DNA from: a virus
Reading direction: 5' to 3' (one strand)
DNA length: 31,478 nt
Virus record (IMG/VR): IMGVR_UViG_3300042376_000760
Coordinates: 1 to 31,478 of that record
The translations under genes were made by a program, and so were the position numbers. This document shows positions 1-30,768 of the stretch, piece by piece. Each line of letters opens with the position of its first letter. Position 1 is the first letter of the stretch. The notes beneath the pieces were generated by a model. The model was not told the origin of the DNA. It ran no database searches and saw only the letters and a program-made list of their open reading frames with translations.

Positions 1-240
1 TATCGAAATGCTTGTCGATGTTGCCGCCGGCCTGAACCATTCTGTTAAAACGTAGTCATTCACGCCATCAAAGTCTAAAGCGTATCGCCCATCGTCGACT
101 ACCCAATCAGTAGCCGCGTCCATATCAGTCAGCGTGCCGTGATTATTGCGTCCGCTGCGATCAAGCAAGCGATAACCGCTAGGCCCTGCCGAAGCGGACC
201 AAAAACCAACGACGCCATTCCAAAGGTTTGAACTTCTCAT
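1..240 (-). CDS. LamG/concanavalin-like tail or fibre protein (N-terminal part)
   Basis: This is the first 80 codons of a gene that runs off the left edge. The start ATG at 240-238 overlaps the stop of the preceding gene by ATGA, so the two are probably translationally coupled. The protein reads MRSSNLWNGVVGFW, then LLDRSGRNNHGTL, then YALDFDGVNDYV. The pair 'D-x-S-G-x-x-N-H-G-T-L' and 'A-L-D-F-D-G-V-N-D-Y-V' is the characteristic N-terminal signature of LamG/concanavalin A-like lectin domains found in phage tail fibres and bacterial surface proteins. Its place at the distal end of the structural operon suggests a receptor- or glycan-binding virion protein. The ligand cannot be told from the sequence, and the fold assignment rests on this short pattern. 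Confidence 0.75.
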   Translation of the reverse strand, partial: MRSSNLWNGVVGFWSASAGPSGYRLLDRSGRNNHGTLTDMDAATDWVVDDGRYALDFDGVNDYVLTEWFRPAATSTSISI

Positions 241-737: not shown

Positions 738-1198
738 TATTTTTCACCCATCTGCTTTCGGGCGTTGATCACTAGGCCGATTCCGACTTCAGGAAGCCCG
801 TTGTGCAATGTCCAAGGTATCGTTGAGTTACCAAGGGCCATGAACTCCGACGCTTGGGATTGAGTTGCAAGTCCAAAGTCGACAATCGCGTCAATCATCG
901 AAACTACGCTTTGACGATCTAGGTCGACCGACTGAACCTTGCCAGATGAGTCGTCAACCCAGTCAATAATCGACAGACACACTCCTCTAATTTCCCTCGG
1001 AGACTGTTGATCAATTCCTGCCATGCGGATTGCTGACCAAAGACCACTCTCGATTAGCCACCTTTTTAGAACCGAAGTGCTAACTTCATTCCTAATTAAA
1101 ACTGACTTCTTGTTGACCTTTTCCGCAGCCTCCGCATCAGTAAGAAGTGCGTATTCTGGATTGCTCAACTCTTGGACCAGAGGAGATATGTCATTCAT
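737..1198 (-). CDS. Hypothetical phage protein in the structural operon
   Basis: A 153-residue soluble protein. The N-terminal half is helical and charged (LTDAEAAEKVNKKSVLIRNEVST); the C-terminal half contains a hydrophobic IPWTLHNGLPEVGIGLVINARKQ segment. The segment around residues 19-60 resembles small phage proteins of unknown function placed next to tail genes; I do not recognise a named family. The start overlaps the stop of 1195-1452 by ATGA and the gene ends in the start of the next one, so it is part of the coupled left end of the structural operon. Confidence 0.6.
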   Translation of the reverse strand: MNDISPLVQELSNPEYALLTDAEAAEKVNKKSVLIRNEVSTSVLKRWLIESGLWSAIRMAGIDQQSPREIRGVCLSIIDWVDDSSGKVQSVDLDRQSVVSMIDAIVDFGLATQSQASEFMALGNSTIPWTLHNGLPEVGIGLVINARKQMGEK

Positions 1199-1452
1199 TC
1201 TTTTTTGTTCTCCTGCTTCCTCAAGCAGTCAATCCTTGATTTAACACAATCGTTGATAATCAACTGATCAGAACACATAGACTCAAGATCGTAGAGCCTC
1301 TGTTCGACTCGTGAGAATCGACGGCCAAGGTTACAAAGAAGGCAGAATAGGAAAATCGACAGGCCGATATACCAGATCGCCGTCAAGTCACCGCTGGATG
1401 CTCGCGACAACTCCTCATAGAGTTCCGGGCTCGACTGGCTCTGCTGCTGCAT
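1195..1452 (-). CDS. Small single-pass membrane protein (holin- or spanin-type candidate)
   Basis: An 85-residue protein with one strong transmembrane segment near residues 26-42 (AIWYIGLSIFLFCLLCNLG), followed by a basic, heptad-like helix (RRFSRVEQRLYDLESM) and a charged tail ending KKE. GGGGAGG lies only three bases before the ATG. A single TM followed by a coiled-coil helix is seen in some phage lysis accessory proteins (holin or inner-membrane spanin type), but no diagnostic motif is present. The first 38 bases overlap the end of another small gene (1415-1573) in a different frame. Its stop is coupled to the next gene by ATGA. Confidence 0.55.
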   Translation of the reverse strand: MQQQSQSSPELYEELSRASSGDLTAIWYIGLSIFLFCLLCNLGRRFSRVEQRLYDLESMCSDQLIINDCVKSRIDCLRKQENKKE

Positions 1453-1573
1453 GATCCTCCCCTTTCCACCAATGAAGCATCTTTAACATAAGATTGATTG
1501 GATTCATGTCGTAAGTCGGTGCTGAAAGCAACGGCTCAAAAACCCATTCGTAGACAACTTGTACTATGTTCAT
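1415..1573 (-). CDS. Short overlapping gene, 52 aa, unknown
   Basis: This short reading frame fills the gap between 1570-1878 and 1195-1452. Its ATG (1573-1571) overlaps the upstream stop as ATGA, the same coupling used throughout this operon, and it ends within the beginning of 1195-1452. The product starts MNIVQVVYEWVFEPLLSAP and continues through NPINLMLKMLHWWKGEDHAAAEPVEPGTL, an amphipathic, Trp-rich peptide with an acidic tail. Amphipathic helices of this size occur among phage lysis and membrane-active proteins, but the function is not identifiable. Support comes from the ATGA coupling, from a gap that fits exactly and from sensible composition. Confidence 0.6.
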   Translation of the reverse strand: MNIVQVVYEWVFEPLLSAPTYDMNPINLMLKMLHWWKGEDHAAAEPVEPGTL

Positions 1574-1878
1574 TGCAGTTTCAACTGGTCCTCAAGTTTC
1601 TTGATGCGATCCTCGTTATTGTTGCACTTTTCTTCCAGCCTTGCCCTGTGCTTTTCACAGTCGATCGTGGCCTTGGTCAGATCGTCGATTACTTTCTTTC
1701 GCTCGGAATTGTCGTTGGCAAGTTCTTCGATTCGATCCCTCATCAGAGAGACATTGGACTTGTACAAGTGGCCCACTATCGTACTCACTCCGACAGAGGC
1801 ACCGCCGACCAACCAGCCGATCCACTCCCAGAATCCTTCGACAGTTTCCGGAGGAGAAGTAGGGACCTCTTGCATCAA
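1570..1878 (-). CDS. Small membrane-anchored coiled-coil protein
   Basis: A 102-residue protein. Residues about 15-38 (GFWEWIGWLVGGASVGVSTIVGHLY) form a hydrophobic, Gly-rich segment, followed by a long charged helix with heptad spacing (MRDRIEELANDNSERKKVIDDL through RIKKLEDQLKLQ). This is the topology of phage proteins sometimes annotated as holin-like or inner-membrane spanin-like. With the two small neighbours downstream it may form a lysis or membrane module at the end of the structural operon. No family motif is recognised. The stop overlaps the ATG of the 52-residue gene. Confidence 0.55.
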   Translation of the reverse strand: MMQEVPTSPPETVEGFWEWIGWLVGGASVGVSTIVGHLYKSNVSLMRDRIEELANDNSERKKVIDDLTKATIDCEKHRARLEEKCNNNEDRIKKLEDQLKLQ

Positions 1879-1879
1879 A

Positions 1880-2398
1880 CTATCTCCCGATTAAATCGTG
1901 GAAGGTATCGGCGCTCATAAAGCCAGTGTATGTGATTTTCCTCCCCCGATACTCGATCTCGATCCTTGGCGCTGCTCCGAGAAACCCTTCGGCTGAAACC
2001 TCCCTGACAGGACCAATGTCATATCCCTGCTGCTTCAGGGCTGGCAACGTCTCCTTTTTGAGCCTCTCGCACGGAGGACAGCCTGGTATGGTCGTGACAG
2101 TGACCTTGCCCAGCGGCCTTGATGGAGTCGGTGTTGGTGGCTGTCCAACGATCCCATCGCCACCACACTCTTGGCACACCGCCGAGACAACTCCGTCCCC
2201 AACCCTTCCTGTGCCATTGCAGTTCTCGCACTTCCCAGATGGGCTAGGTGCTGGATCGGGAGCAGGTGACTGCTCAAGACCTGTAGCGCCAACGAGTGCC
2301 CATGCCCATCCCATCGACTGACCTGTCGGCTGTTGCCCGATCGCAATCGATGACAAGTACGTCAACGCGAAGGCGATGATCGCTGCTACGACTCTCAT
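1880..2398 (-). CDS. Exported protein: DnaJ-type zinc repeats plus thioredoxin-like domain
   Basis: The start is placed at the ATG at 2398, which overlaps the upstream stop (ATGA) and directly begins a signal peptide or anchor (MRVVAAIIAFALTYLSSIAIG). A Pro-rich stretch follows, then two CxxCxGxG-type repeats (CENCNGTGRVG and CQECGGDGIVG), the zinc-binding motif of DnaJ central domains. After a second Pro/Thr linker comes a thioredoxin/glutaredoxin-like domain with CPPC (TTIPGCPPCERLKKETLPALKQQ) and a C-terminal YRGRKITYTGF strand. The CPPC pair suggests a redox-active domain acting outside the cytoplasm. Role inferred: disulfide chemistry on envelope or virion proteins. The combination in one short phage protein is unusual. 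Confidence 0.7.
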   Translation of the reverse strand: MRVVAAIIAFALTYLSSIAIGQQPTGQSMGWAWALVGATGLEQSPAPDPAPSPSGKCENCNGTGRVGDGVVSAVCQECGGDGIVGQPPTPTPSRPLGKVTVTTIPGCPPCERLKKETLPALKQQGYDIGPVREVSAEGFLGAAPRIEIEYRGRKITYTGFMSADTFHDLIGR

Positions 2399-3393
2399 TG
2401 TCCAGTGACTTCCCATCCCGTGCTCCAATTGATGATTCGTGGTTGGAATCCGTTGATGCCCGTCACGGCGTAACTATCGCCTTGAGAGAGCATCCTGTTA
2501 GCTGTCGATCGACTGACCCACCAAGAGCACTTGGCTACCTCCGGATTGGCTCCGAACTCGGCAGCGTTATCCTCGCCTTCGGAGTTGCCCCAAGACTGCA
2601 TACAGGCCACGGCTATGGCCTCTCCGTCGTCGTTGTACTTGACGCCGAAGAACGTCATGCAGTGATACCAAGTCCCCCTGGCATCCTTGAATCCGTCGCT
2701 TCGCCTCTTGCCGTCGAACCCGACGTTCGAGCAGACTGCGATCGCATATCCCGACTCAAGCATCCGGACTGCATCGTCGAACGTCTTGACCTGAATGACT
2801 TCACGAGCAGGATACTTCTTGGCGATGGCATCGAGCTTCCCCTCATCTCGCTCGCCGCCGCATCCAAAGTTCCCCCAGTTCTTGGCCTTCTTGGCGTCGT
2901 AGCGAACCAGATTGTGCTCGTTGATTCCGGTGAACTTCGAGTAGTCTTGGCGAGCGATGTAGCCCCACTTGCTAGCCCATTTGGCAGCAGCAGCGCCGTA
3001 AGATCCGTCGCTCCATCCACCGCGACTCTTGCCGACAGCCTCGACCCTCGATCCGCCGTAGATCGGTTCGGTCGCCATGACGCCAGGCCATTCGATGCTC
3101 ACCGACTTGGTGACGATGTCCACCGCCACGACCAGAGTCCCAGCAATCTCCCAGCCCCACGAGACGCAGTCGCCAATGCCTTGTGCAAAACGCTTCCACC
3201 CTGGCTCTAGTTTGAGCAGTGCGTCCGTCAGCAGGAACGTTCTCTTGGTTCCACGGAACCGAAGTCCGTCGAGGGCGACCCTCTGCTCCTGCGTCATCCG
3301 ATTGACCGCTGTCAAAGGATCGTCAAGGATTCGCTCGACGCCTTCCGGATTGGGAACCCAGCCTTGTGGCTTGTTCAGGATGTCCATACTCAT
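2395..3393 (-). CDS. Papain-like (C1-type) cysteine peptidase homologue
   Basis: A 332-residue protein. The motif QGIGDCVSWGWEIAG (residues about 71-85) matches the papain active-site region, with the oxyanion Gln six residues before the Cys nucleophile. A later GTWYHCMTFFGVKY supplies the His, and MQSWGNSEG supplies the polar/Trp element corresponding to papain N-S-W-G. All three active-site positions therefore appear present. No signal peptide is seen. Within a phage operon it could process virion proteins or cleave host cell-wall peptides (NlpC/P60 and CHAP share the fold), but the substrate is unknown. It is coupled to the upstream gene and to the zinc/thioredoxin gene by ATGA overlaps. 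Confidence 0.65.
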   Translation of the reverse strand: MSMDILNKPQGWVPNPEGVERILDDPLTAVNRMTQEQRVALDGLRFRGTKRTFLLTDALLKLEPGWKRFAQGIGDCVSWGWEIAGTLVVAVDIVTKSVSIEWPGVMATEPIYGGSRVEAVGKSRGGWSDGSYGAAAAKWASKWGYIARQDYSKFTGINEHNLVRYDAKKAKNWGNFGCGGERDEGKLDAIAKKYPAREVIQVKTFDDAVRMLESGYAIAVCSNVGFDGKRRSDGFKDARGTWYHCMTFFGVKYNDDGEAIAVACMQSWGNSEGEDNAAEFGANPEVAKCSWWVSRSTANRMLSQGDSYAVTGINGFQPRIINWSTGWEVTGQ

Positions 3394-8833: not shown

Positions 8834-10597
8834 CTAGACTCCAGCACCGAGCGTGACAACACCTTGCTCCTCGGTTTGGCCTCGAATTAACTGCATGGCT
8901 TTTCGGTACGCACTCGACCCCTGGCGTCTGTAGAGCGTTGGCTCGACGTAGGCTGTGCCCTCGATAAATAGTTGCTCCATGTGCGCTGCGGCGTATTCCG
9001 TGCAGGCCATCAAGTCATACAGCCTCGGATTGGCAGGCTCGTCCAGCACGGCATCGGAGTCAACGACGCGAGAATCCCGCTTCTTCATGTACTTGGTGAA
9101 CTCACGCTTCGTCTCCGGACACTTGTCGTCAATGATCATCAGCGACGGAATGCCTACACCAGCCACAGGCTCCATCAAGTTCCTGACCGCTCGATACCGA
9201 GTCGTAGGAACGTCGCACCCAGGCATGAAGTCGTAACTCGTTTGGCGAGACACTAATCCAGCACCCCTGAATGCCATCGAGAAGTGCATCCTCGTGTTCG
9301 TGTCTCTACCCGCGTGTGTCTGCCTACCAGCCCGATTGTCGATGATGTGGCACTCGTAGTGCTTCGATCCACGCTTGTTCAATATGGCCTGTGCAATCGC
9401 CTCGGCGGTCATTCGCTTACATACCAACTCCCACTCGCAGATCATCACGTTGCCGACGAATACACCATCGATTTCATGCGGAGGAATGGCCCACGACTGT
9501 ATCCCTGTTCGGGTGTGAGAAGGGTCCATGATCAGGTATCGAGTCCAGTCGTTCGGCAACTCGCCAAGCAACTCGTAGATGCTCCTCAGTTTCAGATAGG
9601 CATTGGACCTCGTGGGTTCGTAGATGTGCGAGTCGTTTTTTCTCCTGAGACAATGGACGTGATTGTCGAACGTGTACATGGAGTACGCATCCATGTTGAC
9701 TTCACCACGGTCTCGACGTGCAATCTCCTCCTCGCTTCCCATTCGCTCCAGAGACGCTTCTTTGTTCTCCTGCGATATGAACGGGTTCTTGGTCATGATC
9801 AACTGAACCCGCTGAATCCTTGGGTTCTCTTGGATCGAGCAGAGTTCCGCACGCTCGATCAGCGAGATCAAGGCAGGGTTCTTCATGTGTGGCCAGACTG
9901 ACCACAAGAGCCACCCGTTCTCATCAGTCAGGCGGTCCTGCCACTCCTTGACGTGCTCAGAGAACGCAACGTCCTCGTCGATCCATATCCCAGAAACAGC
10001 GTCACCCATCTTCGGCTGCGGACTTGTGGACGGGTATGCGTAGATCTTCGCCCCGTTTGTGAGTTGCACACTCTTGAACTTGTTGCCTCGCTTGTCCTCC
10101 CATTCCCAAGAGTCCTCAACGATCATTCGATGTGGGATCAATGGTTCGGTCAGATCGGATTCTCCAATCCGAGCGGCATCTGACTTGTCCGCACGATTGA
10201 ACGCCCTCCACAGACCCGTCTTTTCATCGCGGATACAACGGAACTGACCGCCCATGCCAGGCTGGAACAGCAACCTGTGGATCGTCTGGCCTATGTGGTT
10301 CAAGTCATAACCAATGACCCAGTAGATTCTCGGGTAGTTCTCGTTTGCGATAGGCCACCGTGGCTTGAACACCCTGCCGGTAGAGTCCTTGATCGGGATG
10401 CCCGTGACACGGCTGGCAAACTCCATCGCAACGCTCACGGACTTGCCGCTCCGCTTGCCCCCAGACACCAACAACTCGATCGCCGTGCTGCTGTGGATAG
10501 GCTCCTGTTGCTCGTAAGGAGTGTAGACCCGAACTCCCTCGCGAGCACGCCTGTTCTGCTCGATGCTGATCTCGGCTAGGCGTCGGAGGTCTGTCAT
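8834..10597 (-). CDS. terL: Terminase large subunit (ATPase and nuclease)
   Basis: A 587-residue DNA-packaging motor. The Walker A loop is GGKRSGKS (residues about 46-53); Walker B is GIWIDED (residues about 205-212). The C-terminal RNase H-like nuclease begins with IMDPSHTRTG, giving the first metal-binding Asp, and continues with HIIDNRAGRQ. Length and motif order are normal for large terminases. The start overlaps the upstream gene by ATGA, supporting that gene as its small-subunit partner. The protein would dock on the portal, translocate DNA into the prohead and cut it at the end of packaging. Confidence 0.93.
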   Translation of the reverse strand: MTDLRRLAEISIEQNRRAREGVRVYTPYEQQEPIHSSTAIELLVSGGKRSGKSVSVAMEFASRVTGIPIKDSTGRVFKPRWPIANENYPRIYWVIGYDLNHIGQTIHRLLFQPGMGGQFRCIRDEKTGLWRAFNRADKSDAARIGESDLTEPLIPHRMIVEDSWEWEDKRGNKFKSVQLTNGAKIYAYPSTSPQPKMGDAVSGIWIDEDVAFSEHVKEWQDRLTDENGWLLWSVWPHMKNPALISLIERAELCSIQENPRIQRVQLIMTKNPFISQENKEASLERMGSEEEIARRDRGEVNMDAYSMYTFDNHVHCLRRKNDSHIYEPTRSNAYLKLRSIYELLGELPNDWTRYLIMDPSHTRTGIQSWAIPPHEIDGVFVGNVMICEWELVCKRMTAEAIAQAILNKRGSKHYECHIIDNRAGRQTHAGRDTNTRMHFSMAFRGAGLVSRQTSYDFMPGCDVPTTRYRAVRNLMEPVAGVGIPSLMIIDDKCPETKREFTKYMKKRDSRVVDSDAVLDEPANPRLYDLMACTEYAAAHMEQLFIEGTAYVEPTLYRRQGSSAYRKAMQLIRGQTEEQGVVTLGAGV

Positions 10598-13724: not shown

Positions 13725-14840
13725 TTATGCGTAAGACTTGATCTTCGCGAAATGCTTCGGCTTGTATTCCACGTTGCCGTAGAAGCCGATGCCCCACAGG
13801 TACGACCAGTTGCTGCGTGGGTCCTTGTCAGGGCCTTCGTACCAGAACAACTGCGGCGTCAAGGCGTGGATCTTCATCTGGTTGACGTTGATGAAGTATC
13901 CGGTCCCGACTGGGCAGTCGAAGTCCGGGTACAGTCCGACGCCGTCTTGGTTGAGCGTCATGCCGAACCCGAGGTCCTGCGACTCCTTGTGGGGAACCGT
14001 GATCCGAGTCTTGACTTCCTGGGCGTTCTTGTAGCCCTGGAACAAGTCCGAGGCCATCGCTCCGAGCGTCGGCATTCCGTCGTCACCACCGGTCGTGGTG
14101 AGCCAGGTAATGGCCTGAGAAACGACTCGCCAAGCATTGGCTTCCCAAGTCGTCGCACCAGTGCCCCAGTTCGAGGACGACCAGTTGATCAACTTCGGTG
14201 CGTTGAAATCGTACTCGGAAGTACCCGAACCGTCAGGCCAGTCCGTCGCGATCGTCGAGTTCGGCTTGGTGCTCAACGCACTCGACCACGAGCCGCCGTA
14301 AGCACCGAGTTGGGTCGACAACTGACCCAAGCCGTAGGTGTCGCTCGGGACTGCAATCCGGTCGGTCGCCGCACAGGTGCCTGCACCCATGAAGGTCTCC
14401 AACCCGTGGATCGCGTTCTCGCGACCGGCAGTACTTCCGTCGCGATACAACTCGCCAGCGAACGTGTCGGTGATCGATTTTCGCAGGTTGTTCGTCTTGG
14501 ACTGGAACAGGTTGACCAACTGCTCAGTACCTCGGTTCATGAGGTTCTGCTTCGTGGTCAGCGTGTCAGTCCCGACGTACCCACCCCATTCGATCGACAC
14601 CTGTCGGTACGCTCGGTGGTTCGAGAAATCGAGGACGGAGCCGTCGCCGTTCTGCGTGATCGGAGGCTGACTGAACTCCAACTGCCAAACGAGTTCGGTC
14701 CCGCTCGCATTGAACGCGACTCGGCCTCGCTTCTGTGCCTGTGCAAGCAATAGTCGCTTGCGCATAGTCATGTCCGAAGCACCCTTCATGAACTTCGGCA
14801 TTGTGGTTTCGACTATGCCAACCCACTCGTCTGCTGCCAT
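13725..14840 (-). CDS. Major capsid protein
   Basis: A 371-residue protein immediately downstream of the scaffold-like gene and upstream of the decoration protein, the classic slot. Features include an N-terminal arm with MRKRLLLAQAQKRGRVAFN, then an E-loop-like region (LVWQLEFSQPPITQNGDGSV, DFSNHRAYRQVSIEWGGYVG) and NLMNRGTEQLVNLFQSKTNNLRKSITDTFAGELYRDGS, a pattern common in HK97-fold coat proteins of environmental phages. The central part has a Gly/Ala/Ser-rich domain (GLGQLSTQLGAYGGSWSSA). Assigned by position, size and this pattern. No protease gene is seen nearby and nothing suggests an N-terminal delta domain. Confidence 0.8.
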   Translation of the reverse strand: MAADEWVGIVETTMPKFMKGASDMTMRKRLLLAQAQKRGRVAFNASGTELVWQLEFSQPPITQNGDGSVLDFSNHRAYRQVSIEWGGYVGTDTLTTKQNLMNRGTEQLVNLFQSKTNNLRKSITDTFAGELYRDGSTAGRENAIHGLETFMGAGTCAATDRIAVPSDTYGLGQLSTQLGAYGGSWSSALSTKPNSTIATDWPDGSGTSEYDFNAPKLINWSSSNWGTGATTWEANAWRVVSQAITWLTTTGGDDGMPTLGAMASDLFQGYKNAQEVKTRITVPHKESQDLGFGMTLNQDGVGLYPDFDCPVGTGYFINVNQMKIHALTPQLFWYEGPDKDPRSNWSYLWGIGFYGNVEYKPKHFAKIKSYA

Positions 14841-14850
14841 CTTTTAATCC

Positions 14851-16008
14851 TTACCTGGAGAGTAATAGAGACCGGGTGAACAAAGTATCCAGATCAGCTT
14901 CGTTGTTGATCTGAAGGCCCGGGTCCACACCCGGTCCAGTAGCGTTTGGCGAGTATGCGTTTGCATTCCTCGCCTTCTCCAGAAACGATTGTTGCGGACT
15001 CTGGCTTGGTGGAGGCACTGCTGGTGCGACAGGTGCCGGTGCAGGGGCTGCCTGCTTGCTTGTTCGGTTGTTGAGGCCCGTGATGAACAAGGCCTGCTGG
15101 ATCGCCTGGCTAGGCTCTAGCCCCTGGGCGTACATAGCCTGAACGGCACTGATGAGCCTTTCGCCATCCTGGGTCGGGACCTGCTGCTTCGTGACCGGAT
15201 CTTGCGTGTAGATCCACGAGGCGTTCTCCGACTCGAACTTTTCGACCACGTTTTGACTTGTGGTCCGGCTCTGGATCTCTGCGATCCTCTGCTGGACAAT
15301 TCGATCGACTTCTCGAAGGATCGGGTCCTTGGTGACGTTGTAAACGTCTTTGTAAAAGTTGCTGCGGGTGATTCCTTGCCACTTCTGGCTGATCGCCCGA
15401 GCGGACTCGTTCATCTTGGGCAGGATCGGGTTGGCAACGCTCTCGAACCCGGGCTTGGCAATGTACATGCCAGTCGCTGGGTCCTGAGTAACGATGCCGC
15501 TCGTGATCGCCTGATCGTATTCCGGCGACCAACTGACTCCCCACTTCTCACCGAAGTAGGCGTCTGGGTCAAATTCGTCCGACTTCTTGACCGGATCTGC
15601 CTTTGCGGGCTCTGGAACGGGCTTCTGTGCAGCCATCTGCTGCTGTGCCACCTTGAGTGCGTGCATGTTCTGCAACGCCACCAAAAGGGCTTCCTCGGCA
15701 CTGGATTCGTCTGCGATGTCGAGGCCCATCTGGCGAGCAGACTTCCTCAGAATCGACAGCGTATCGTCCTGTCTTTGCTGCGGAGGCTCGACGGCACGAG
15801 GCGGTTGTGCCGGAGCAGGGTCCGGAGTCGGCGGAGCAGGGTCTGGCTGGGCTGGAGGAGGCTGGACTGGCTCAACTGGGGGAGGACTCGAAGGAGCAGG
15901 CGTAGGGTCAGCGACCGGAGCCTGTGGTGCAGGTGCCGTAGCAGTCGCAGCAGCAAGTGCATCGGTGAACTCGCTTCCGCTCAACGTCGAATCGTCATCA
16001 AGTCCCAT
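14851..16008 (-). CDS. Scaffolding protein
   Basis: About 385 residues. ATG at 16008 is chosen; a TTG at 16020 would add four residues. Residues about 20-100 are Ala/Pro-rich and disordered (APAPQAPVADPTPAPSSPPP). A helical middle follows (LSILRKSARQMGLDIAD, then NMHALKVAQQQMAAQ), and another Ala/Pro-rich linker precedes a C-terminal helix (NNEADLDTLFTRSLLLSR). A disordered, low-complexity protein with a C-terminal helix directly before the major capsid gene is typical for internal scaffolds. It would direct prohead assembly and then leave or be degraded. It is the first gene of the leftward structural run. Confidence 0.75.
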   Translation of the reverse strand: MGLDDDSTLSGSEFTDALAAATATAPAPQAPVADPTPAPSSPPPVEPVQPPPAQPDPAPPTPDPAPAQPPRAVEPPQQRQDDTLSILRKSARQMGLDIADESSAEEALLVALQNMHALKVAQQQMAAQKPVPEPAKADPVKKSDEFDPDAYFGEKWGVSWSPEYDQAITSGIVTQDPATGMYIAKPGFESVANPILPKMNESARAISQKWQGITRSNFYKDVYNVTKDPILREVDRIVQQRIAEIQSRTTSQNVVEKFESENASWIYTQDPVTKQQVPTQDGERLISAVQAMYAQGLEPSQAIQQALFITGLNNRTSKQAAPAPAPVAPAVPPPSQSPQQSFLEKARNANAYSPNATGPGVDPGLQINNEADLDTLFTRSLLLSR

Positions 16009-22981: not shown

Positions 22982-23767
22982 TTACTCAAATAAAAGCCCT
23001 TGGCTTTCTTGGTGGCACTTAACCCAGACAGAAGCTGCCGCGTGAGATTCAATTCTGTGCGCAATGATGTCACCTCGCACCGCCTTGCTTATCTGCCCGG
23101 CATACTTAAAACTCTCCCACTGCTTGTCTATCCCAATGTTCCTTGCAACATTGCAAGAATCGACGCTTGAAAATGGGTATCTACTGAACAACTTCGGGTC
23201 CATCATCCTTAGTCCGTGGACCTTTACTCTTGGCCTGCCTTCTGCATCACAAATTACATCCATGACCTCGCTCATCCTAAACTCCCACTCGTCAGACCCT
23301 GGGACGCTGTAGTCTCCAGAAGATCCAATCGCTATCCTTTTTAGACCAAGATTAAATGCCATTTCATGAAGCCAGCCAAGAGATTCATGAAGATGCCACA
23401 CTGGAACGCTCTGGTGCTTTATTGAAGCGTTTCTGCTAATCCAGTCTTTTATTAAATCAATGTTATCTAACTCGCTTCCATCAATAACGTCCGGTATCAA
23501 GCACCAATCAAAACCTGGATGCAGGCTCCATTCTTCTATCCATTCTTCGTAAGCGTCGATGTCAATCACCCCCATCCCCTGCTTCCAGTGAGAAAAAGCA
23601 CCGTTGTCAAGAACGAAGGACTGACAGATTTCAGCAACCATCCCTATCTGGTCTGGGTGTTCAAAACTCACCAGACCATGCCTGCCGCTCAATATCTGAA
23701 CGGCAGAGCAAGATGGCGTTATTGGTGTCCCGTGGTATCTGATCAATTTACTATCCAGTAATTTCAA
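22982..23767 (-). CDS. TGT/DpdA-like TIM-barrel protein (tentative)
   Basis: A 261-residue protein. The succession RYHGTPITP, VLDNGAFSHWKQG, DWCLIPDVIDG, VPVWHLHES, KRIAIGSSGDY, RVKVHGLRM and SRYPFSSVDSCNVARN spaces short strand-end motifs like a TIM barrel; the D-N-G-A-F, I-P-D and S-V-D-S signatures resemble phage proteins related to tRNA-guanine transglycosylases and the DNA-modifying DpdA group. Those enzymes exchange guanine for a 7-deazaguanine. If so, Asp of IPDVID or DNGAF would be the nucleophile candidate. No 7-deazaguanine biosynthesis genes are in the window, so the enzyme would use host-made base, or the function has drifted. The assignment rests on pattern memory. Confidence 0.4.
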   Translation of the reverse strand: MKLLDSKLIRYHGTPITPSCSAVQILSGRHGLVSFEHPDQIGMVAEICQSFVLDNGAFSHWKQGMGVIDIDAYEEWIEEWSLHPGFDWCLIPDVIDGSELDNIDLIKDWISRNASIKHQSVPVWHLHESLGWLHEMAFNLGLKRIAIGSSGDYSVPGSDEWEFRMSEVMDVICDAEGRPRVKVHGLRMMDPKLFSRYPFSSVDSCNVARNIGIDKQWESFKYAGQISKAVRGDIIAHRIESHAAASVWVKCHQESQGLLFE

Positions 23768-28296: not shown

Positions 28297-28497
28297 CGTT
28301 TCTATTCCGATCGATCCTAGGCCAACCCGGCCCCATCTATTCCCGATCGATTATCACCCGAAGCCTCTACGCTTCGCGCCGTTCTGGTGTCAAGCTTGTC
28401 ACCAGTATTCTCCCCACCGATTCTATCGGGTTCGATTCTTAGCCCCCAAATTAGCCCCGCCTACGCTTCCGATCGATCCGGGTGGGTTTCACACCGT

Positions 28498-28797: not shown

Positions 28798-29016
28798 ATG
28801 TCAGGTGACAGTAAGATTCAGTTCAGCGAAAGGGAACAGAATGCACTCGCAATGATCTGCGAGATGATGTCTCACGCCAAGCATGAGTCTCGACTTGGGG
28901 ATGACTTCGACACTGAAGCTGTGGTGGATAGCGTTGCCAGAGTTCTGGATAGCTTCCTGTCAGTGAGGTGGGACGATCTTTACGATCGGTTCCATCGTCA
29001 GGGTGTCAATCGGTAA
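28798..29016 (+). CDS. Small acidic protein, unknown
   Basis: A 72-residue protein: MSGDSKIQFSEREQNALAMICEMMSHAKHESRLG, then DTEAVVDSVARVLDSFLSVRWDDLYDRFHRQG. Helical and acidic; no domain recognised. The start context CTACTTTTGGAGTATCGCT-ATG recurs at the neighbouring genes 29109 and 29337. The last 29 bases of the gene are repeated almost exactly after 29639 (29640-29669), a sign of cassette duplication. Confidence 0.55.
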   Translation: MSGDSKIQFSEREQNALAMICEMMSHAKHESRLGDDFDTEAVVDSVARVLDSFLSVRWDDLYDRFHRQGVNR

Positions 29017-29025
29017 TCGCAGAGC

Positions 29026-29081
29026 AGCGCCCTCCGGGGCGTTAATGCGGCCTGCCCTACGGCAGACGGTTGCAAGCCCGT
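29026..29081 (+). ncRNA. Three-hairpin leader, copy 1
   Basis: Stem 1 (29026-29043): AGCGCCC, UCCG loop, GGGCGUU, 7 bp. The linker AATGCGGC follows. Stem 2 (29052-29065): CTGCC, CTAC, GGCAG. Stem 3 (29066-29081): ACGG, loop TTGCAAGC, CCGT. The same architecture recurs before the paralogous gene at 30778, with compensatory changes in all stems. CGCAGA precedes stem 1 in both. Confidence 0.65.
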
Positions 29082-29108: not shown

Positions 29109-29297
29109 ATGCGTTATCAAGTCACCGTCGAACGTGTCGAACGGTTCTTGGAGACTGTCACTGTTGAAGCCGAATCGTCTGAGTCAGCCATTGATAAGGT
29201 TGAACTGACGACCAAGGATGGTGAGTCGGTCCTGTATGCCGAATGCCAATACTGCCTAGACAACGGCACTGGTGCCTGTCAGGGCTATGGTTGCTAG
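29109..29297 (+). CDS. Small beta-rich protein, paralogue of 30778-30963
   Basis: A 62-residue protein, MRYQVTVERVERFLETVTVEAESSE, then AIDKVELTTKDGES and a Cys-rich end (CQYCLDNGTGACQGYGC). The first 35 residues align with 30778-30963 (MQYIVTVERIDRYTKRVAVEAES), so the two genes are paralogues, yet only this one has the four-Cys tail, which may bind metal. The start is taken at ATG 29109, after the CTCTACTGGAGTATCGCT context. Function unknown. A three-hairpin leader precedes both copies. Confidence 0.65.
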   Translation: MRYQVTVERVERFLETVTVEAESSESAIDKVELTTKDGESVLYAECQYCLDNGTGACQGYGC

Positions 29298-29336: not shown

Positions 29337-29639
29337 ATGAGACACACACCTGGACCTTGGATGTTTCACCTCGGACGTGGAGCCAATCCAAGATTTCACG
29401 TTCAAACGACAAGTGGATACCAAATTGCCAGCACGACAGAACTGAACAGTCACCCTCAAGCCAAGGATGAAAACGAGCAGCGACAAGCAAACGCTAGGCT
29501 GATCGCCGCAGCGCCAGACCTTCTGGAAGCGTGTGAACTGGTGCAGAAGTGGATGCTTGGTGGGCAACCTGCTCCATTCAGCGACTCGAAGGTCTTGGAA
29601 GCTGTCGGCGAAGCGATATCCAAAGCCAAGGACGCCTAA
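29337..29639 (+). CDS. Phage protein of the 'HTPGPW...ARLIAAAPDLLEA' type
   Basis: A 100-residue protein. It starts MRHTPGPWMFHLGRGANPRFHV and continues ENEQRQANARLIAAAPDLLEACE, a pattern very widespread in phages and prophages, whose members have no established function. Length is normal for the group. The start context CCCTTTTATTGGAGTATTGCTAA-ATG follows the local consensus. It is the last gene before the large non-coding stretch. Confidence 0.8.
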   Translation: MRHTPGPWMFHLGRGANPRFHVQTTSGYQIASTTELNSHPQAKDENEQRQANARLIAAAPDLLEACELVQKWMLGGQPAPFSDSKVLEAVGEAISKAKDA

Positions 29640-30337
29640 CGGTTCCATCGTCAAGGTGTCAATCGGTGATTTTCATCGCTTCCCTATTGACTCCTTCGGG
29701 ACAGTAGATAGAGTGTTAATGTCGCCCTTAGACAAGGCGGCAAAGGAACCCAATTCATGACACTCTTAACGATCAACCGAATCTTGTTGTGCGTTGGGTT
29801 CCGCCACAACAGTCTACGCCAACAGCCAGGTGAGCAATCACTTGGCTGTAAGCGTTTCACGGATCGAGTAATCGACAATTGCGTTGTCTAGGTGATAACA
29901 AAGCCTTCGGGGATCGGTTGACCGGCTGTAGCACCCGAGAAAGCAGAGCCGGAAAGTGATAGTGAGCGGTGTTAATCCCACCGTCAAGGAAGCCTAGAGT
30001 ATCGGTCACGACCGAGACGGGCTAGGCGAATACAGAGGTGAAATATGGCTTCTCCATCAGGAGTTTTTCCCGGCAACGAACGAGTAGTTGATCTCGTAAA
30101 GCACGCCAGCGTCCGGGTCCACAGACGATTCCAGCAAAAAGCCGTAGCATAAGCCCGAGTTACCTGAGTCACTGATACAACGCAATTGAAGTCAAGCAAT
30201 CGCCAACCTGATGATACCCGGTCTTTATAGGCTGGTATCGTCGGGGATGGCGTGCGTGTTGTCCGAGGTCGGTTTCACGCCGTTTCCCCTCGTTTGGTGT
30301 CGGTTTTTCGAGTTCCTCGTTTTCGGGAGTAGATTTC
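29640..30337 (+). ncRNA. Candidate large structured RNA (core about 29705-30252)
   Basis: About 700 bases without a convincing gene. Pairings visible by eye: GAGTGT/ACACTC (29711/29760); GTCGCC/GGCGGC (29721/29736); GTTGTGCG/CGCCACAAC hairpin (29786-29810) whose loop TTGGGTT is complementary to AACCCAA at 29747, a possible pseudoknot; an 11-bp hairpin CAGCCAGGTGA-GCAA-TCACTTGGCTG with GNRA loop (29823-29848); a perfect 12-bp long-range helix CAATTGCGTTGT/ACAACGCAATTG (29876/30177) extended after a 4x4 loop by GTGA/TCAC; CGGTG/CACCG near 29969; and a terminal stem CGCCA, GATGATACC / GGTATCGTC, TGGCG (30201-30252). A 44-codon frame at 29757-29891 lies across these stems and is probably incidental. 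Size and style recall giant phage RNAs such as GOLLD or ROOL, but identity is untested. Confidence 0.55.
30284..30293 (+). repeat. TTCCCCTCGT element, copy 5
   Basis: Within GGTTTCACGCCGTTTCCCC followed by TCGTTTGGTGTCGGTTTTT, nearly identical over 35 bases to copy 6; the ATG at 30338 is 45 bases downstream. Confidence 0.65.
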
Positions 30338-30650: not shown

Positions 30651-30706
30651 CGCAGATGACATCAATTTCCTCGTTTTATGGAGTAGATCATGCGACGAAA
30701 CTAAAC
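30651..30706 (+). other. Cassette remnant: truncated leader and four-codon ORF
   Basis: CGCAGATGACATCAATTTCCTCG is followed by a start context (TTATGGAGTAGATC) and ATG CGA CGA AAC TAA, after which CGCAGATGACA repeats and begins the next leader. This looks like a gene start left behind when a cassette was lost, or a very short leader peptide (MRRN). Confidence 0.45.
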
Positions 30707-30713
30707 GCAGATG

Positions 30714-30768
30714 ACACCCTTCGGGGTGTAATGCGGCCTAGCACTTCGCTAGCCAGTTCAAAGCCTGG
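30714..30768 (+). ncRNA. Three-hairpin leader, copy 2
   Basis: Stem 1 (30714-30729): ACACCC, UUCG loop, GGGTGT. Linker AATGCGGC. Stem 2 (30738-30752): CTAGC, ACTTC, GCTAG. Stem 3 (30753-30768): CCAG, loop TTCAAAGC, CTGG. The GG of the 3' strand of stem 3 is also the start of GGAG, the ribosome site of the ATG at 30778, so folding could hide it. Confidence 0.65.

Follow-up and report, generated by a model that had tools for sequence, protein, structure and literature searches.

The region at approximately 29721-30255 on the plus strand of the DNA stretch analysed here (the window, 31,478 nucleotides in total) is likely the gene of a stand-alone structured RNA, non-coding and ~540 nt long, which presumably acts as a folded scaffold. 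The window is part of the genome of a phage from an environmental metagenome, with genes for a terminase, a portal, a major head protein and a serine recombinase, and it corresponds, in reversed orientation, to positions 7519-38996 of the 66.9-kb IMG/VR contig 3300044911_000926 (G001), where a tail tube protein is encoded as well. One other version of the element is known, 96% identical, in the contig 3300043772_001034 (G005). The candidate is probably a real, hitherto unclassified structured RNA that is restricted to a phage lineage and would represent a new family. The fold, the individual helices and the lack of a gene on the plus strand lend good support to the central idea of a preliminary description, namely a large structured non-coding RNA in a phage.

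When 560-nt segments are tiled over both strands of the 66.9-kb contig, the candidate ranks first out of 222 with a z-score of -6.5, and a 601-nt fold of the region scores -6.9. At 250 nt the candidate ranks third out of 1068, after both strands of a single segment in the head-gene region, and short-range folding alone therefore does not set the region apart. The segment in question, positions 14747-14996 at the start of the major-head gene, is among a few further segments with a strong fold and scores z -5.9 and -5.3 on its two strands. A perfect Watson-Crick stem of at least 12 bp appears in one of 150 dinucleotide shuffles of the region, in line with the earlier judgement that such a complement is unlikely to arise by chance, and three stems of at least 12 bp, with G-U pairs counted, appear in three of 150. 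The inverted repeats could also be thought to act as cruciforms at the DNA level, in a replication origin or a packaging or recombination site, and the location is suggestive of such a role, as the region has many inverted repeats and no genes and is situated within a rightward group of small genes ~1.2 kb from the cumulative GC-skew minimum (position 10456 in G001, 28541 in the window), with the leftward and rightward operons diverging near 27 kb. However, the skew minimum falls outside the candidate, and RNA is favoured by the strand bias, the opposite strand reaching a z-score of only -3.1 at 560 nt, and by 17 G-U pairs among the 163 of the predicted fold; a DNA element is accordingly unlikely. 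The plus strand is indeed free of genes, as had been claimed, with 11, 11 and 13 stop codons in the three frames and no credible ORF within 29640-30337. Two ORFs of 64 and 71 amino acids run on the minus strand; neither has a Pfam match, and the 64-residue one is missing from the ORF list of the second phage.

In the predicted fold of the RNA, two hairpins at the 5′ end are followed by the GCAA hairpin, then by a large domain that a 12-bp helix holds together, and finally by a 3′ stem-loop (Table 1). The perfect helix closing the domain is present as first described, with 29876-29887 (CAATTGCGTTGT) paired to 30177-30188 (ACAACGCAATTG). The internal loop and the second helix behind it also exist, although the loop is 3x3 and not 4x4 and the helix (29891-29896/30168-30173) has six base pairs instead of four. 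Likewise, the GCAA hairpin is real but consists of 12 bp with one G-U pair (29822-29833/29838-29849) rather than 11, and is extended by ACGC/GCGT. The long two-part terminal stem was recovered as well, with no U tract after it. Further inside the large domain the helices at 30038-30150 have mostly low pair probabilities (0.2-0.56), and the interior has a different predicted fold in G005. Finally, the pairing AACCCAA/TTGGGTT is genuine, but instead of the proposed loop-to-upstream pseudoknot it forms, together with CATGACA/TGTTGTG, one long hairpin (GGAACCCAAU.CAUGACA/UGUUGUG.GUUGGGUUCC). The pseudoknot is the less likely reading on stereochemical grounds, as only about 2 nt would remain to span a helix of 9-10 bp if the rival hairpin TGTTGTG/CACAACA formed. 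A 6-bp AGAGTG/CACTCT pairing, which is broken in G005 and overlaps the promoter, was also discarded.

Table 1 Predicted features of the candidate RNA and its putative promoter (window coordinates).
Feature	Position	Strand	Remarks
Putative promoter TTGACT-16-TAGAGT, +1 at G29721	29687..29714	+	sequence scan
UUCG-loop hairpin	29684..29707	+	overlaps promoter; in the RNA only given a further-upstream start
5′ hairpin (hairpin A) GUCGCC/GGCGGC	29721..29741	+	identical in both phages
Long hairpin, middle stem replaced in both arms in G005, pairing kept	29745..29802	+	
16-bp hairpin, GCAA tetraloop	29816..29855	+	mean pair probability 0.94-0.99
Large domain, perfect 12-bp closing helix, then 6-bp and 6-bp helices	29876..30188	+	
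Stem-loop with the sole core substitution, C29923 to T in G005 (C-G to U-G)	29913..29960	+	
Hairpin GCCUAG/CUAGGC with UCGGU/ACCGA	29992..30027	+	pair probability 0.95-0.99, two main helices
Terminal stem-loop, probable 3′ boundary	30196..30255	+	12+5 bp on top of 5+3 bp

Homologues were sought by exact-pattern scans of IMG/VR and by blastn against phages, plasmids and bacterial genomes. In the IMG/VR scans only two phage contigs carry the RNA, and the other matches fail to align past the seed; blastn gave only short chance matches in phages and nothing in plasmids, and a 20-base match in a bacterial genome, apparently within a coding gene and without further similarity, was set aside. A 146-nt covariance model found no further copy in related phages, and searches based on the terminase, the flanking genes and the repeat returned additional contigs from this phage or its relatives, none of them spanning the locus.

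Between the two versions, 17 positions differ over 29721-30259, and none of the differences breaks a predicted helix. Fourteen of these substitutions lie in or beside the two arms of the long hairpin, two are in its apical loop and the last one turns a C-G pair into U-G. A stem section of 9-10 bp has been swapped in both arms with the pairing retained (GGAACCCAA/TTGGGTTCC versus GAGGGCAAA/TTTGCCCTC). The replaced stem in G005 is an 11-bp helix, with G-U allowed; when the 3′ arm is shuffled 100,000 times, 72 of the shuffled arms do as well, and arms taken from different phages do not cross-pair (at most 4 bp). RNAalifold reported no double-sided changes in the two-sequence alignment; a one-base shift of the new stem hides the replacement from such column-wise covariation programs. 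In this hairpin the shape would matter and not the sequence. The replaced stem might instead stem from templated correction of an imperfect palindrome through strand switching in replication, and the matching arms would then be no sign of selection on RNA. Such an origin is rather unlikely: while both arms did change together inside an otherwise identical stretch, as quasi-palindrome templating would give, it leaves the other helices, the strand bias and the agreement between the promoter and the +1 position unexplained. All variation but one base is confined to one part of 65 nt, and in the remaining ~450-nt core the two sequences are identical except for C29923T, so that compensatory change is seen only in the variable hairpin. 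The high identity of the core was dropped as a sign of selection, since the genomes are mosaic and 4% of equal-sized segments compared between both phages also differ by at most one base. A TTGATCG/CGATCAA pairing found only in G005 (8 bp with G-U, p about 0.01) has no counterpart in the window, and the variable arms have few other matches in the phage, at a level near that expected by chance.

The first hairpin begins at G29721, seven bases past the end of the promoter-like site, which places +1 at that G in both phages, the version in G005 being TTGACT-16-TACAGT. Over both strands of the 66.9-kb genome there are six sites of the form TTGACN-16..18-TANNNT, the putative promoter included, and a looser promoter scan returns site numbers at chance level. 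The five changes upstream of G29721 in G005 are found in the third base of the -10 element and in the spacer to +1, which in a promoter of this kind would be weakly conserved positions. At the opposite end, the identity between the two contigs stops just past the 3′ stem-loop. The unit 29669-30259 is intact in both phages although the upstream gene differs, with the window having an extra gene at 29337-29639 followed by 31 bases that duplicate the end of ORF 28798-29016, and G005 running directly on from the gene that ends at window position 29297. Therefore, the RNA is not the 3′ UTR of the upstream gene, and the boundaries together with the swapped neighbours suggest an independent unit that is presumably transcribed. 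The two copies of the 31-nt repeat (94%; 28987-29017 and 29640-29670) place a duplicate of the end of ORF 28798-29016 after ORF 29337-29639, and the repeat beside the RNA reads as a trace of gene insertion or recombination. A regulatory leader or 3′ UTR of adjacent genes, devoid of independent function, would fit the co-directional placement within an operon of small genes that has twister ribozymes between them; however, apart from the change of the upstream neighbour, the candidate far exceeds known leaders in size and a repeat element stands between it and the next gene, and we judge such a role quite unlikely.

The twister ribozymes of the window, both of the Twister-P5 family (RF02684), are located one on each side of the candidate at 29018-29081 and 30706-30768, whereas the candidate itself fails the twister model. 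There are five Twister-P5 copies in G001 and seven in the related contig G005, placed between small genes of the operon and immediately 5′ of small ORFs, two of which resemble DpnD-PcfM, one above and one below the Pfam cut-off. The intergenic repeat TTCACnnCnnTTCCCCTCGTT(T)GG is found at window positions 28481, 28657, 30267 and 31191 (also 26943 and 27806); it stands before many genes and marks contigs of the same phage group, and it could serve the phage as a promoter or a regulatory site. Elsewhere in the window, 22982-23767 encodes a protein related to queuine tRNA-ribosyltransferases (phrog_887, E 7e-59) that possibly takes part in DNA or tRNA base modification, and the product of 17688-18332 matches phrog_8902, whose function is unknown, and shows what looks by eye like a Nudix motif. 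The terminase gene of a relative (3300034101_004521, 823-3153) contains an in-frame insertion of ~570 bp inside the Walker A motif (GGKR/CISGDT...VHHN/SGKS, slashes marking the insertion ends), which looks like an intein.

To our knowledge, phages have so far yielded very few large structured RNAs. GOLLD and ROOL both turned out to be RNA-only cages, with ROOL assembling into a multimeric one. The candidate is similar to GOLLD (RF01998) and ROOL (RF03087) in being large, elaborate, phage-encoded and non-coding and in having a GNRA loop, but the earlier suggestion that it belongs with them was not borne out, as neither family matches either version at E≤5. The proposed Rfam search for GOLLD, ROOL and group I and II introns placed none of these above the gathering score, and more generally no Rfam family reached it in the region or matches either version; therefore, the RNA is not GOLLD, ROOL, OLE or a recognisable intron. 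A new class, also proposed at the outset, is compatible with the evidence, but two sequences do not suffice to establish a class backed by covariation. GOLLD often exceeds 800 nt and lies near tRNA islands (PMC12286853), whereas the candidate is shorter and no tRNA gene is present in the window or G001; G005 has a tRNA-Thr gene at 35320-35388. A more variable 5′ part is common to the candidate and GOLLD (PMC12286853). The two families (PMC12286853) are the closest in kind, though not in sequence or Rfam model. OLE, which is found in Gram-positive extremophilic bacteria (PMC11332333), is likewise a large ornate non-coding RNA, but the candidate has no Rfam match to it.

The only Rfam match at E≤5 is a sub-threshold one to group-II-D1D4-7 (RF02012) at 29792-29871 (24.2 bits versus a cut-off of 34, E 0.011), which overlaps the variable hairpin. 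As in domain I of group II introns, the loop of a hairpin is complementary to an upstream stretch, and the region could accordingly be imagined as a degenerate group II or other catalytic intron with base pairing between an EBS1-like loop and an IBS1-like sequence upstream of it, guide and target having changed in concert between the phages. However, the match is gone in G005, no intron domain V/VI family matches either version at E≤5, neither phage contig encodes a reverse transcriptase (PF00078), the group I intron model has no match in either version and no ORF is interrupted, which leaves an intron highly improbable.

Most likely, the candidate RNA would work as a folded scaffold, binding either itself or a partner. 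Its own promoter would drive transcription within what appears to be a rightward, early-type operon, the 3′ stem-loop would protect or end the RNA, and the rigid scaffold may use the conserved core to bind a partner from the phage or the host, or more copies of the same RNA. By analogy with GOLLD and ROOL, a bolder and rather doubtful proposal is that the two versions are the first two members of a new class of large ornate RNAs in phages, which would assemble or act as an RNA machine, with the hypervariable stem setting identity between related phages. Several twister ribozymes surround the candidate, and the phage has an unusual wealth of structured RNA. If the candidate is truly a third phage giant unrelated to GOLLD and ROOL, its defined ends and its variable stem, which compensates for its own changes, would make it a new test case.
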